DNA of 64,000 bases, from positions 62,001 to 126,000 of the forward strand of contig JAILOK010000056.1 in the NCBI GenBank assembly GCA_024690825.1. Reading direction: 5' to 3'. The notes under the pieces were generated by a model that was not told the DNA's origin, ran no database searches, and worked only from the letters and a program-made list of their open reading frames with translations. Shown here piece after piece: positions 44,836-51,250 of the stretch. The DNA is from Lachnospiraceae bacterium. GTDB lineage: Bacteria; Bacillota; Clostridia; Lachnospirales; Lachnospiraceae. Both the position numbers and the translations under genes were made by a program. Every line of letters starts with the position of its first letter. Position 1 is the stretch's first letter.

Positions 44836-45518
44836 AGCCTCTCATCTGTTCCTTTTCGGGAGTATATGAAGGACAGAGGATAACGGCGGTCTCGGATATC
44901 GTGGATTTTTCGGATATGAGGGGCTGCAGCATGTATGTGGACGAAGAGGCGGAAAAGATCATTTTGGACAGGCTGTCCGGGCATTCGTTTACGGGTCTGC
45001 ATTTCATCGATAACGGAAACTATCATTATATGACAAGGCTTTTTCTTTCTTTTGTAAGAGATGAATTTGACCTGTGTCTTTTTGATCATCATACGGATGA
45101 CAAGCCGCCCGCCTTTGGCGGATTGAAATCCTGCGGTTCATGGGTTTACGATATCAGAAACGAGAACGCATTTCTGCGCGATCTTGTCCATATCAGAAAA
45201 AAAGGTGATGAAACAGGTCTTTTCCCGGGGGAAAGACCTGTTTATATTTCGGTTGACAAGGATGTTCTTTCTGCCGATGTTCTTCATACGAACTGGGATC
45301 AGGGTGATATGACAAAGGAAGAGTTCTTTGAGATCTTCACGGGTATAATAAAAACGCGGCCCGTCCTCGGCATTGACATATGCGGGGAGGACGAGCCGGA
45401 TAAAAGCCGGGTCGAAAATGATGCCTTTAACATGGAGATCATTGACACGCTCAGACGATCTTTTTCGTCCGTGAACGGTCTTTTTTCGCCAGATTCTCCC
45501 TGGCCGTTGAAAGCATGA
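44832..45518 (+). CDS. arginase/agmatinase/formiminoglutamase family protein
   Basis: '[16 protein letters not shown]', '[22 protein letters not shown]'; start ATG 44832 overlaps aquaporin stop. Confidence 0.88.
45211..45243. terminator. strong hairpin inside arginase-family CDS; candidate terminator of the convergent minus-strand gene
   Basis: AAACAGGTCTTT..TCCCGGGGG..AAAGACCTGTTT; on the minus strand followed within 7 nt by a T-run (cctttttttc). Confidence 0.5.
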
Positions 45519-48500
45519 GTTTGATCCTGTTCAGCTGGTTTACCTCGGACGCTCCGGGGTCATAGTCTATGGCAACTATATTTGCCCTGCGGTATTCCTG
45601 ACGTATGCGTTTTATTACTCCTTTTCCCACGACATGATTAGGCAGACATCCGAAAGGCTGCGTACAGACGATATTATAAACGCCCATATGTATGAGCTCG
45701 AGCATCTCGCCGGTCAGGAACCATCCTTCACCCGTCTGATTTCCGATCGAAACGATACTTTCGGCAAGATCTGCTATATCCTTTATGTGGGAATGAGGTA
45801 CAAAGTGCTCGGAATGCACAAGTTCGCGTGAAGCTGTCTTTCGCATCGTTTCTATTGCCTTAATGCCGAGCTTTGAGATACGGCTTGCTTTTTTGGAAGT
45901 GCCAAGCTTGTCGGCCTTGTATATCTGGTTGTAAAAACAGTAGAGCATGAAATCCAAAAGGTCGGGAACAACGGCTTCCGCACCTTCGCTTTCAAGGAGT
46001 TCGACGAGATGGTTGTTTGCCGCGGGCATGAATTTCACCAATATCTCCCCTACGACGCCGACACGGGGCTTTTGCATCCGTTCGTCTATGGGAAGCATGT
46101 CAAATTCCCGGACTATCCTTTTGCAAAGGCGTTTATAGCGTGAATATGAGACTGAACCGCTCGTCAGGAACTGCAGACACTCATTGGTGAGTTTTCTGTG
46201 CAGCGAATTGGCTGAACCTGCCTTAAGTTCATAGGGACGCATCCTGTACAGGCATCTCATAAAAAGATCTCCGAATTCGGCGGCATATGCCAGTCTTATG
46301 AGGAGAGAGGGACTGAGCTTAAATCCGGGATTGGGCTCGAATCCGGACATGTTAAGAGATATCACGGGAACCTGTTCCATGCCGGCCATTTTAAGCGCCC
46401 TTCTTATGAAAGCGACATAATTTGTGGCTCTGCAGCCGCCGCCTGTCTGACTCATGACGACAGCGGTGCGGTCGAGATCAAATCTTCCCGAGAGAAGGCT
46501 TTCCATGATCTGTCCGACCACCATCAGAGAGGGATAGCAGGCATCATTATTGACATATTTAAGTCCGACATCTACAGCGATATGCCCGTCGTTTTCCATG
46601 ACCTCCAGGTTATATCCGCAGGCTCTGAATGCCGGTTCGAGAAGGTTGAAATGTATGGGTGACATCTGCGGACAGAGGATGGTATACCCTTTTTTGTTCA
46701 TCTCTTCTGTATAGATCACTCTTTTATTAGCGCTTGGACGGATCCTGCGTTTTACATCACGCATCTCCCTGACGCGTATGGCGGCAAGCAGAGAGCGTAT
46801 CCTGATCCTTGCCGCTCCCAGATTATTAACCTCATCTATCTTCAGACAGGTATATATCTTGTCTGCGCTGTCGAGTATCTCCATGACCTGATCGGTGGTC
46901 ACCGCATCAAGTCCGCATCCGAAGCTGTTCAGCTGGATGAGGTCAAGATCGTCCCTTGTCCTTACAAACTGGGCTGCGGCGTAGAGCCTTGAATGGTACA
47001 TCCACTGGTCCATTACCCTGATGGGACGGTCGACCTTTGCAAGGTGCGAGACCGAATCCTCGGTAAGGACGGCGACTCCGAAGGATGTGATCAGTTCGGG
47101 AATGCCGTGATTTATCTCCTGATCGATATGATAGGGACGTCCGGCCAGAACTATTCCGTGTCTGTCGTTTTCCCTCATCCACTGCAGGGTTTCCTCACCC
47201 CTGATCCGTATATCTTCACGCGCCCTTTGCTGTTCGTCCCAAGCGGCAAAGACTGCCTTTATTATGCTTTCCGGTTCGATCTCGGGGAAGGCTTCCATGA
47301 GGCGGGGATATATATGATCCGGATCATCAAAGGCTATGAACGGATTTCTGAAGTCTATGTCCCTCAGCGGCAGGTCCTCAACATTGTTTTTGATATTCTC
47401 GGGATAGGATGTAACGATCGGACAGTTGTAATGATTGCCGGCATCCTCAAATTCATTGCGTTCATAGAAGAGTGAAGGATAGAAAATGAGCCCGATACCC
47501 TGATTTATGAGCCATTCGATATGACCGTGAACAAGCTTTGCGGGATAGCATTCCGATTCCGAAGGGATCGATTCGATCCCCAGCTCATATATGGCATGTG
47601 TCGAAGCCGGAGACAGCACGACGGTAAAGCCGAGTTTTGTGAAAAATGTGAACCAGAAAGGATAGTTCTCATACATGTTGAGAACCCGGGGTATGCCGAT
47701 CCTTCCAAAGGGTGCTTCGTCCGCCGGCAGGGGCGTGTATCCGAAGATCCGCTTAAGTTTATAATCAAAAAGATTCGGCACATCGGTATTTGTTTTGGGC
47801 TTTCCCGCTCCTTTTTCACAGCGGTTCCCCGATATATAGGTTCTGCCGCCGCTGAATCTGTTGATGGTCAGACGGCAGTGATTAAGGCATCCCTGACACT
47901 TGGCCATGGAAGTGGTGAACTGAAGCTCATTTATATCCTTTATTGAAAGCATGGAGGACCCGGTCCCCTGCACATGACGTTCGCGCGCGATCAGTGCAGC
48001 GCCGAAAGCTCCCATGATGCCGGCTATGTCGGGCCTGATAACCTCGAAATTTCCGATCTTTTCAAGAGAACGCAGAACGGCGTTATTATAAAAGGTTCCG
48101 CCCTGTACGACTATGGTGGATCCCAAAGATGCGGCATCGGATACCTTGATGACCTTGAAAAGCGCGTTTTTTATTACGGAATAAGCCAGTCCCGCGGAAA
48201 TATCATCAACACCGGCGCCTTCCTTCTGAGCCTGCTTTACCTTTGAATTCATGAATACGGTGCAGCGGGTTCCGAGATCTATGGGATGTTTGGCAAAGAG
48301 CGCTTTTTCGGCAAAATCTTCAACCGACATGTTAAGCGATTTGGCGAAGGTCTCAAGAAAGGAACCGCAGCCGGAGGAGCAGGCTTCGTTAAGCTGAACC
48401 GAATCAACGGTGTTATTCTTTATCTTTATGCACTTCATATCCTGACCGCCGATATCGAGGATACAGTCCACATCAGGGTTAAAGAAGGAGGCGGCATAAT

Positions 48501-49707
48501 AGTGCGCCACTGTCTCGACCTCGCCCTCATCGAGCATAAGAGCAGACTTTATCAGCGCTTCTCCGTACCCGGTAGAGCAGGCTCCGGCAATGGAGACGCT
48601 TTTGGGCATGAGATCATAGATCTCCTTTATGGATCTGATCGCCGTGAGAAGAGGCGATCCGTTATTATTGGAATAAAAAGAATAGAGAAGCTCGCCGTTT
48701 TCGGAAATAAGGGCGCATTTGGTCGTCGTGGAGCCTGCGTCTATGCCGAGATAGGCACGCCCCCTGTAGGAAGAGAGAGGCTTCTTTTTTACCTTTGCCC
48801 TGGCATGGCGTCTGGAAAAGGCCCTGTATTCGGTGATGTTTGCGAAAAGAGGTTCCATCCGCGCAACCTCGAAGTCCATATGGATCGGACCTGAGAGGAT
48901 CCCGACCATGCTGCTCAAGGGTCTTACATGAACGCCGTCATGATTCATTGCCGAGCCTATGGCTGCGAAAAGGTGAGAGTTTTCGGGAACGATCGCATGC
49001 TCATCATCGAGTTTTAATGTTCTGATAAATGATGAACGCAGCTCGGAAAGAAAATGCAAAGGACCACCCAGAAACGCGACATGTCCTCTTATGGGTTTTC
49101 CGCAGGCAAGTCCCGATATGGTCTGGTTTACAACAGCCTGAAAAATGGATGCGGCAAGATCTTCTTTGGTGGCGCCTTCATTGATGAGAGGCTGGATATC
49201 GGATTTCGCAAAGACTCCGCATCTGGCAGCTATGGTATAGAGGCTGCTGTATTGTTTTGCATATTCGTTGAGTCCGGCCGAGTCCGTCTGGAGGAGGGAG
49301 GCCATCTGGTCGATGAACGATCCGGTGCCGCCGGCGCAGATGCCGTTCATGCGCTGTTCGACATTCCCGTCCTCGAAATAAATGATCTTTGCGTCTTCGC
49401 CGCCGAGTTCTATGGCAACATCGGTCAGAGGGGCAAAGTATTTCAGGGCCTTTGAAACGGCAATGACTTCCTGAACAAAGGGCACATTAAGGGCATTGGC
49501 CAGTGTCAGTCCGCCGGATCCGGTTATTACCGGATCGACATCCACATCACCGGTGACCTTGAAAGCATCATCTAACAGGGAATGAAGAGTTTCCTTTATA
49601 TTGGCAAAGTGACGCCTGTAATCCGAGAAAAGGATGTCCATATCCTCATTGAGGAGCGCCACCTTGACGGTCGTTGAACCTATATCTATACCAAGCATGC
49701 ATGACAT
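45451..49707 (-). CDS. 2-hydroxyacyl-CoA dehydratase activator-like protein (two BcrAD/BadFG ASKHA domains plus DUF2229/HgdB-like regions)
   Basis: '[16 protein letters not shown]', '[15 protein letters not shown]', '[15 protein letters not shown]', '[18 protein letters not shown]'; start set at ATG 49707. Confidence 0.93.
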
Positions 49708-49731
49708 AATAAAAAACCTCTTATGGATCAA

Positions 49732-49890
49732 ATGATGTCACGAATCGCTCAGCTGCCGGGGCAGCTTCCGCGATTCCAAAACACTCGCAATCGGTGCAGC
49801 TGCACCGATTGCTTGTGTTTTACGGGTCACAAGGACATAATGCTTATCATGCAAGCATGAAGCATTATGTCCTTCTGACCCTGACATCAT
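49732..49890. repeat. four-way-junction-like palindromic element: outer 9 bp inverted repeat enclosing three hairpins
   Basis: ATGATGTCA (49732-49740)/TGACATCAT (49882-49890); hairpins 49742-49776, 49778-49821, 49824-49881. Confidence 0.85.
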
Positions 49891-49919
49891 ATTATAGTGT
49901 TATTATTATAAATAGACAA
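49891..49919 (-). promoter_or_regulatory. candidate sigma-A promoter for the dehydratase-activator-like gene
   Basis: Minus strand TTGTCT, 17 nt, TATAAT (49896-49891). Confidence 0.5.
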
Positions 49920-49975: not shown

Positions 49976-51250
49976 ATGGGAGATAAGCAGATAGTCATAG
50001 CGGTTTTCATTCTGATGTACATCGTTATGATCTTTTTTCAAAAATTCAGGGTGCATGCGGCTTTGGGGGCCGCTCTGATCCTTATCGTCACAAAGGTGAT
50101 CCCGCTTTCGGCCCTTCCTTCGGCCATAAACTGGAATGTCCTTATGATGATAGCCGGGACCATGGTTGTGGTGTTTTTCTTTATCGACTCGGGAATGCCT
50201 TCAAGGATAGCGGACGGTCTGATGGAAAAATCCGCCAATGTTATGTGGCTGATAGTATCAATATCGCTGTTTTCCGGCCTTGTATCGGCTTTTATCGATA
50301 ATGTCGCAACCGTTCTGATGATCGCGCCTGTCGGTCTTGCGATCTGTAAAAAGATCGATATCGATCCGGTTCCGGTGATCATTTCCATAGCCGTAAGCTC
50401 CAATCTTCAGGGCGCGGCAACTCTTGTGGGTGACACGACATCCATACTGCTCGGCGGATATGCGGGTATGAATTTCCTTGATTTCTTCTGGATGAACGGA
50501 AGGCCGGGAATGTTCTTTACAGTCGAATTAGGCGCGCTGGCAACCATTCTTGTGATGTTTATCCTCTTTAAGAAATACAGGGATAAGGTAGAGGTCAGGG
50601 AGAAAACGGAGGTTAAGGATATAGTCCCTTCGATCATGCTGCTTCTTATTGTGATACTTCTCATTGCGGTTTCGTTCATACCGGGCAAGCCCGAGATGAT
50701 AAACGGCATCATCTGCATGAGCATAGCTCTTGTAACGATCCTGCAGGATCTTATCAGGCACAGGGACAAAGAGAGATTTGTCAGGGCGCTTAAAGATGTG
50801 GATTATCAGACACTGCTGCTTTTAGTGGGTATTTTTGTGGTCGTTCAGTCACTTACCGAGACGGGACTTATCGATGATATGGCATCCGGCATAATAAAAG
50901 CAGGGGGCGGCAGCACCTTCCTTCTCTATACGATACTGGTGTGGGCTTCCGTTCTGATATCGGCCTTTGTTGATAATATACCTTATGTGGCAACCATGCT
51001 TCCCGTGGTCAGATCGATATCACTTTCCATGGGGGCGTCGCCGTATCTGCTCTATTTCGGACTTCTTACCGGAGCGACGCTCGGCGGTAATCTGACACCG
51101 GTAGGAGCATCTGCGAACATAACAGCCATAGGTATTTTAAAGAAGGAAGGGTGTGAGGTCTCGTTTGCGGATTTTGCAAAGATAGGCATACCTTTTACCC
51201 TGATCGCGGTTTTTGTGGGATATGTTTTTGTCTGGTTCGTATGGAAATGA
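49976..51250 (+). CDS. ArsB/NhaD/SLC13-type permease
   Basis: 'DNVATVLMIAPVGLAICKK', 'FVDNIPYVATMLPVV', 'LTGATLGGNLTPVGASANITAIGILKKEG'. Confidence 0.93.
   Translation: MGDKQIVIAVFILMYIVMIFFQKFRVHAALGAALILIVTKVIPLSALPSAINWNVLMMIAGTMVVVFFFIDSGMPSRIADGLMEKSANVMWLIVSISLFSGLVSAFIDNVATVLMIAPVGLAICKKIDIDPVPVIISIAVSSNLQGAATLVGDTTSILLGGYAGMNFLDFFWMNGRPGMFFTVELGALATILVMFILFKKYRDKVEVREKTEVKDIVPSIMLLLIVILLIAVSFIPGKPEMINGIICMSIALVTILQDLIRHRDKERFVRALKDVDYQTLLLLVGIFVVVQSLTETGLIDDMASGIIKAGGGSTFLLYTILVWASVLISAFVDNIPYVATMLPVVRSISLSMGASPYLLYFGLLTGATLGGNLTPVGASANITAIGILKKEGCEVSFADFAKIGIPFTLIAVFVGYVFVWFVWK

Follow-up and report, generated by a model that had tools for sequence, protein, structure and literature searches.

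Results

Locus and structure of the element

The window analysed here (the whole 64,000-nt stretch of DNA from a Lachnospiraceae bacterium) carries a structured element in the intergenic region between a CoA-enzyme activase gene and a divergently transcribed permease gene. The natural unit is the 157 nt from 49733 to 49889 on the minus strand, which spans the Rfam model RF01699 end to end. The features of the locus are as follows.

45451–49731, minus strand: CoA-enzyme activase fusion gene (BcrAD_BadFG + DUF2229), downstream of the RNA.
49727–49733, no strand: flank ATTTGAT (minus-strand reading) on the opposite side from ATAATAT; matches ATNNNAT and differs from ATAATAT.
49733–49889, minus strand: RF01699 element, very probably a decayed MITE copy, with an outer stem closing three hairpins in a four-way junction (cmscan; fold z −13.1).
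49733–49740, no strand: outer stem arm TGATGTCA.
49734–49739, minus strand: right end GACATC; the 3′ terminal-repeat hairpin (~34 bp) of intact copies is absent.
49742–49776, minus strand: H1, the last hairpin, with a purine-rich internal loop conserved among relatives.
49778–49821, minus strand: H2, the middle hairpin, with conserved internal loops in most relatives and a 26-nt perfect palindrome in the window copy.
49824–49881, minus strand: H3, the first hairpin of the RNA, with an apical CUUG loop and a G-C closing pair.
49872–49888, minus strand: left terminal inverted repeat GATGTCAGGGTCAGAAG, with one mismatch to the family end GATGTMAGGGTCAAAAG (sequence and family ends).
49882–49889, no strand: outer stem arm TGACATCA.
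49889–49895, no strand: flank ATAATAT (minus-strand reading); matches ATNNNAT, with 4/7 positions identical to the opposite flank.
49891–49919, minus strand: promoter-like TTGTCT-17-TATAAT (consensus match only); the RNA start would fall at the first bases of the element.
49976–51250, plus strand: CitMHS/ArsB-type permease gene, the divergent neighbour.

An earlier sequence-only reading had described an outer pair, ATGATGTCA (49732–49740) and TGACATCAT (49882–49890), enclosing H1, H2 and H3 in a nearly linker-free four-way junction, and all of these arms were found in place. The 26-nt perfect palindrome within H2 lies at 49787–49812, and both the MFE and the centroid fold give the junction on either strand with hardly any unpaired linker. 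The folding energy was −99.4 kcal/mol (z −13.1) for the minus strand and −92.7 kcal/mol (z −12.6) for the plus strand, and none of 200 shuffled sequences folded as well. The palindrome occupies positions where relatives have asymmetric conserved loops and resembles the product of template-switch (quasi-palindrome) correction. A scan flagged H2 as an intrinsic terminator on both strands, a role that was rejected: the tail (TTGTGTTTTA/GAGTGTTTTG) belongs to the foot of that stem, and the element has no U-run after it.

The minus-strand promoter proposed earlier (TTGTCT-17-TATAAT, 49919–49891) is present as a sequence, yet it is weak evidence, being one of seven consensus matches in 600 bp where 1.7 were expected. 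Three relatives share the gene pair, and in their alignment the conservation of the intergenic region falls on the plus-strand promoter-like TAGACA-17-TATTAT of the permease gene. The likely start codon of the activase, judged from the sequence, is an ATG near 49707. The element thus lies between the promoter-like site and this start codon, which fits the reasonable idea, based on the consensus match, that its RNA would form the 5′ leader of the activase mRNA.

Rfam identity and distribution

The only above-threshold Rfam match in the window was RF01699 (Clostridiales-1 RNA), found by cmscan on the minus strand with 101.7 bits against a gathering threshold of 48 and covering model positions 1–166 of 166. 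The curated threshold was therefore passed over the full model, and the consensus structure is kept by covariation. Rfam files this family as an sRNA of unknown function. Clostridiales-1 was introduced by Weinberg et al. 2010 (PMC2864571), where a table rates it as 'probably' RNA and 'probably not' a riboswitch or cis-regulatory; function and mobility go unmentioned in the main text. The RNA itself is thus already known, whereas no claim of its mobility was found in the open-access literature searched. Self-cleaving and splicing RNAs were also considered, and no such Rfam family matched the element. The suggestion of an unknown structured regulatory RNA holds in part: the fold is conserved at the RNA level (see below), but the RNA is already catalogued and a regulatory role is putative.

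A covariance search for further copies revealed a multi-copy, dispersed family; a single-copy element that is syntenic everywhere, the pattern expected to speak against mobility, was not what was found. The genome of the window (2.95 Mb) holds six copies above threshold, together with fragments that are internally deleted and keep their ends. RF01699 matches occurred in 43 of 48 genomes of the genus sample; several of these carried at least 46 copies each, many of them scoring equally within one genome, i.e. near-identical. In the Lachnospiraceae sample, 133 of 250 genomes matched, which corresponds to 132 of 249 genera. A phylum-wide sample of 299 genomes gave four positives, all Lachnospiraceae. 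Within the samples searched, Clostridiales-1 RNA is restricted to this one family, and the element is common in gut and rumen Lachnospiraceae. Viral contigs scanned for the ends described below yielded a single site, and carriage by phages is therefore not supported. A one-contig genome of another genus (G264) contained 32 end-like sites and no long pair.

Terminal inverted repeats and target duplications

The boundaries of the mobile unit were apparent in one high-copy genome (G001). The left flanks of its copies differ wholly up to TGATG, and in most copies a 34-nt tail, GTAAGGGGCAAAATTTACTTTTGACCCTTACATC, extends beyond the Rfam model, followed by differing flanks that repeat 7–8 bp of the left flank. 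The tail and the flank repeats place the ends of the unit at the GATGTMAGGGTCAAAAG inverted repeats, which are 17–18 bp long in intact copies. The end pattern GATGTNAGGGTCAAAAG occurred 193 times in this genome, against 0 for a reversed-pattern control. All fetched DNA contained 131 distinct repeat-bounded units of 36–399 bp. Perfect 7-bp direct repeats flanked 47 of them and repeats with 6/7 identity a further 16, where random re-pairing of the flanks predicts 1.05 and 6.3, respectively. The consensus of the duplicated target was ATNNNAT. Copies from other genera possess the same ends (TGATRCCAGGGTCAAAAGG ... CCTTTTGACCCCAACATCA), and duplications were present in many genera. In the genome of the window itself, the copy on contig C95 is flanked by the duplication ATATGAT. 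Units of 36–73 bp, which lack most of the hairpins, also carry duplications.

Taken at the family level, the units are short, non-coding and dispersed in many copies; they end in inverted repeats, duplicate their target and have an autonomous partner bearing the same ends, as is characteristic of MITEs. The element in the window is very probably a member of this MITE family. The earlier suggestion of a MITE/REP-like mobile element is accordingly upheld by the copy number and dispersal of the family, by its terminal inverted repeats with duplicated targets, and by its absence from particular loci. The duplications that it called for exist in the family (47 perfect among 131 units), whereas the flanks of the window copy agree at 4/7 positions.

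Other repeats were seen beside or within the units. Six units of 344–399 bp (L143, L144, L147, L148, L151 and L262) and L160 contain a second inverted repeat, GTTACTGTTCA...TGAACAGTAAC, nested within the longer Clostridiales-1 unit, which is apparently another small repeat family inserted there. In L141 (G000:C137), a separate repeat without an Rfam match, the long palindrome TGACAGGGGGACGGTTCTGGTGTCAAC...GTTGACACCAGAACCGTCCCCCTGTCA, comes after a MITE end near 862. Next to one copy of the MITE end, at a contig end of G001 (C1, L165), lies a sequence similar, as judged by eye only, to a group II intron 3′ end.

Candidate transposase and autonomous elements

Autonomous partners were obtained only via a wide genome scan for the end sequence. 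One such element (L312) is 1714 bp long, has GATGTAAGGGTCAAAAG at both ends and encodes a 522-aa transposase; a relative (L353) is 1902 bp long. In the genome of the window, contig C39 (335–2208) carries an 1874-bp insertion sequence with a 561-aa frame, the ends GATGTAAGGGTCAAAAG and GATGTTGGGGTCAAAAG, which are the two end types of the MITEs, and a perfect 7-bp duplication, ATATAAT. The best family for the transposases was IS1182 (NF033551, E 3e-38 to 1e-41), but the scores of 131.8, 143 and 139.2 bits fall below the curated cutoff of 270, and we therefore name them IS1182-like. Their Pfam matches were DUF772 and DDE domains. Only 5 of the 48 genus genomes yielded the gene. The MITEs and the insertion sequences have only the 17–18 bp ends in common, and the latter possess further subterminal repeats around CCTTGAAAA. 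From the matching ends and the target duplications we infer that the IS1182-like transposase would mobilise the MITEs in trans.

Other candidates were rejected. Among the PF00872 (IS256/Mutator) and PF01609 transposases of four high-copy genomes, none had the ends of the element, and the inward flanks of 40 single ends in G001 contained no transposase. An 854-bp unit with MITE-type ends (L184:44–897, G001:C9) was discarded as a partner: it has no clear duplication, and its gene pair encodes a HEPN-like protein and an MNT nucleotidyltransferase (PF08780 and PF18765/PF01909) instead of a transposase; the pair may be a mobilised toxin–antitoxin-like cassette. Related IS1182-like transposases (~50% identical) in L211/L371 (G001:C15) and L373 (G010:C96) have different terminal repeats, ATGAGTCGCCCGACAAATG, which indicates that end specificity diverged within the transposase group. 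A further relative (L372:881–2734, G029:C15) has the ends GATTAGGGTGTCAAAAG and the 7-bp duplication CTATAAG, thereby supporting duplications of this length for the group.

The window copy as a probable decayed insertion

The window copy retains a complete left end and lacks the second full terminal repeat, the unit stopping at the inner GACATC. The right hairpin could have been lost by a deletion between two ACATC repeats, and the transposition of this copy is itself presumed from the behaviour of its family. Three relatives (G016, G009 and G045) have the same divergent gene pair without the element; they supply the empty sites that the sequence-only reading had proposed to look for, at intergenic regions too diverged to give the exact junction. 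The decayed ends and these absences indicate an old, decayed insertion that is no core feature of the locus. At the orthologous intergenic region, G045 (C161, L085) has another insert rich in hairpins, TCAGGTATTGTCAGGCTCCCGG...CCAATACCTGA, which matched no Rfam family over threshold.

These observations bear on the Rfam classification of Clostridiales-1 as a stand-alone sRNA gene, which the host would retain for regulation of its own and whose copies would be paralogues. Strong RNA-level conservation with invariant loop positions, the strand-asymmetric mismatches described below and the table rating of Weinberg et al. (PMC2864571; probably RNA, probably not cis-regulatory) would all suit such a gene. 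However, an ordinary sRNA gene would not be expected to have terminal repeats, 7-bp duplications, autonomous insertion sequences that match it, or dozens of near-identical dispersed copies with unrelated surroundings; moreover, the syntenic site is empty in three relatives, and there is no conserved upstream promoter, the flank differing in each copy right up to TGATG. We consider this explanation quite unlikely.

Orientation relative to genes and probable selection on the RNA

The copies are not oriented randomly relative to genes. Among 92 copies with called neighbours, those in tandem-gene settings were sense in 40 cases and antisense in 18 (p 0.005). A sense stop codon lay within 6 nt of the 5′ end in 21 cases, compared with four antisense stops at the 3′ end (p 0.0009). 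Where a long sense frame was open 60 nt upstream (41 copies), its stop was within 6 nt of the element in most; in nine of these near-stop cases the called element opened with the stop itself, mostly as the TGA within TGATG. Because the target ATNNNAT is palindromic, it cannot of itself favour one orientation, and the bias more likely stems from selection on transcribed copies.

The alignment of 35 sequences from many genera, including the window copy, revealed compensatory changes on both sides in 39 of 42 consensus pairs. The earlier reading had named the lack of such changes as evidence against an RNA, and the opposite was found. Paired cells made up 95.3% of the alignment, against 71.5% after shuffling and 31–44% when the structure was slid. 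Conserved loop sequences comprise the apical GCUUGC of H3 and the internal loops of H2 and H1. Mismatches provide a test of the strand, because a pure DNA structure predicts equal numbers of G·T and A·C mismatches on one strand. On the Rfam strand of 64 copies, 41 G·U and four A·C mismatches occurred inside Watson–Crick stems; the G·U cases came from many positions, one recurrent place accounting for about a dozen. The RNA fold of the Rfam strand was more stable than that of its complement in 64 of 64 copies, by 11.3 kcal/mol on average. The copies counted here are related and hence not independent, and the direction was uniform. The fold has thus probably been selected as RNA, as far as sequence comparison can tell.

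Two other explanations of the fold were weighed against this evidence. The first holds that the structure acts as DNA, a cruciform or single-strand hairpins being recognised by the transposase in the style of REP/RAYT or IS200/IS605 systems, with no role as RNA. The hairpins are near-perfect on both strands, the family is mobile, and inverted repeats or stem-loops are the reported targets of IS1272, a member of the IS1182 family (PMC5678879). This explanation is nevertheless highly improbable in view of the 41 G·U against four A·C mismatches, the strand difference of 11 kcal/mol in all 64 copies, the orientation bias relative to genes, and the 7-bp duplications with long terminal repeats, features foreign to HUH single-strand elements. 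The 36–73 bp units also duplicate their target, which indicates that the hairpins are not needed for transposition. The related proposal of a single-strand-DNA recombination substrate is not supported, given the strong strand asymmetry of the mismatches, and a DDE-type transposase acting on the terminal repeats explains the mobilisation.

The second explanation attributes the compensatory changes mainly to template-switch (quasi-palindrome) correction and regards the fold as a functionless by-product of mutation in a neutral MITE. In the window copy, H2 is a perfect 26-nt palindrome where relatives have internal loops, and many pairs, particularly in H1 and H2, switch directly between Watson–Crick types with very few G·U intermediates. 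Both features fit such correction as a source of compensatory changes, whether alongside selection or in its place. It does not, however, predict the excess of G·U over A·C, the conserved non-palindromic internal loops and apical GCUUGC of most copies, or the sense-orientation bias. We judge it unlikely as the main explanation and retain selection of the fold as RNA.

Discussion

Proposed mechanism and implications

In the mechanism that we propose, the 17–18 bp repeats (GATGTMAGGGTCAAAAG) would be recognised in trans by an IS1182-like transposase whose gene lies elsewhere, and the unit would be inserted at AT-rich ATNNNAT sites with duplication of 7 bp. The body would be kept since it is transcribed in the Rfam orientation within host mRNAs and folds into a compact four-way-junction RNA, which may render insertion in transcribed intergenic regions tolerable or useful. 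The typical site would be directly behind a stop codon, and the left end TGATG could supply the TGA itself. The window copy would have lost its right repeat and duplication; situated between the promoter-like site and the activase start, it may be transcribed as an mRNA 5′ leader. A specific cis role behind stop codons is conceivable, and we advance it tentatively, at somewhat less than an even chance. The fuller proposal is more tentative still: the transposon would have recruited a purpose-built structured RNA as cargo, making insertions behind stops harmless or beneficial through the shaping of mRNAs, as an intron-free analogue of IStrons in about half of the sampled Lachnospiraceae genera.

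Clostridiales-1 has been an orphan RNA family since 2010. On this evidence it very probably forms the body of a transposable element whose ends and target site are defined and for which there is a candidate transposase. This nature explains the copy number and scatter of the family and makes its function testable, and it cautions against treating the genomic neighbours of Clostridiales-1 as members of a regulon. If the proposal is true, a conserved, RNA-selected fold carried as cargo behind stop codons would be an unusual transposon lifestyle in compact bacterial genomes, and mRNA ends would be affected in a dominant gut and rumen bacterial family. The same approach, combining terminal repeats, target duplications and strand-asymmetric mismatches, is applicable to other orphan Rfam families.

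Comparison with known systems

The element agrees with RF01699 end to end in sequence and structure model, above the curated threshold; the Rfam model covers only part of the mobile unit and omits the 3′ terminal-repeat hairpin. The general traits of MITEs (reviewed in PMC10969869) are short non-coding units, the terminal repeats of an autonomous element, AT-rich intergenic targets, short duplications and stable folds, and Clostridiales-1 units share these with the MITEs of IS elements. Unlike in the usual IS-derived MITE, the body is a covarying RNA and not an internal deletion of an insertion sequence. Perfect 7-bp duplications were found here, whereas IS1272, from the IS1182 family, is reported to replace stem-loops without duplication (PMC5678879).

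Clostridiales-1 units resemble REP/BIME, BOX, RUP and other bacterial intergenic repeats in being dispersed, palindromic, intergenic sequences that end up in mRNAs. They differ from REP/BIME, BOX and RUP in their length of ~160–190 nt, in one conserved four-way junction and in DDE-type terminal repeats with 7-bp duplications. REP/RAYT and IS200/IS605 elements have hairpin-guided ends and no duplication, in contrast to the 7-bp duplications and 17–18 bp repeats observed here, and, unlike for REP/BIME, a RAYT-type gene is unnecessary as an explanation. IStrons combine a group I intron with an insertion sequence, and many start with UGA or UAA, whereby an insertion in frame supplies the stop codon itself (PMC4227781). 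Clostridiales-1 units differ in that no intron, splicing or ribozyme family, including a group I intron, was recognised in them, in that they stand behind genes and not inside them, and in that their transposase would be supplied in trans. Like IStrons, they are DNA transposons that carry a conserved structured RNA and often start at a stop codon.
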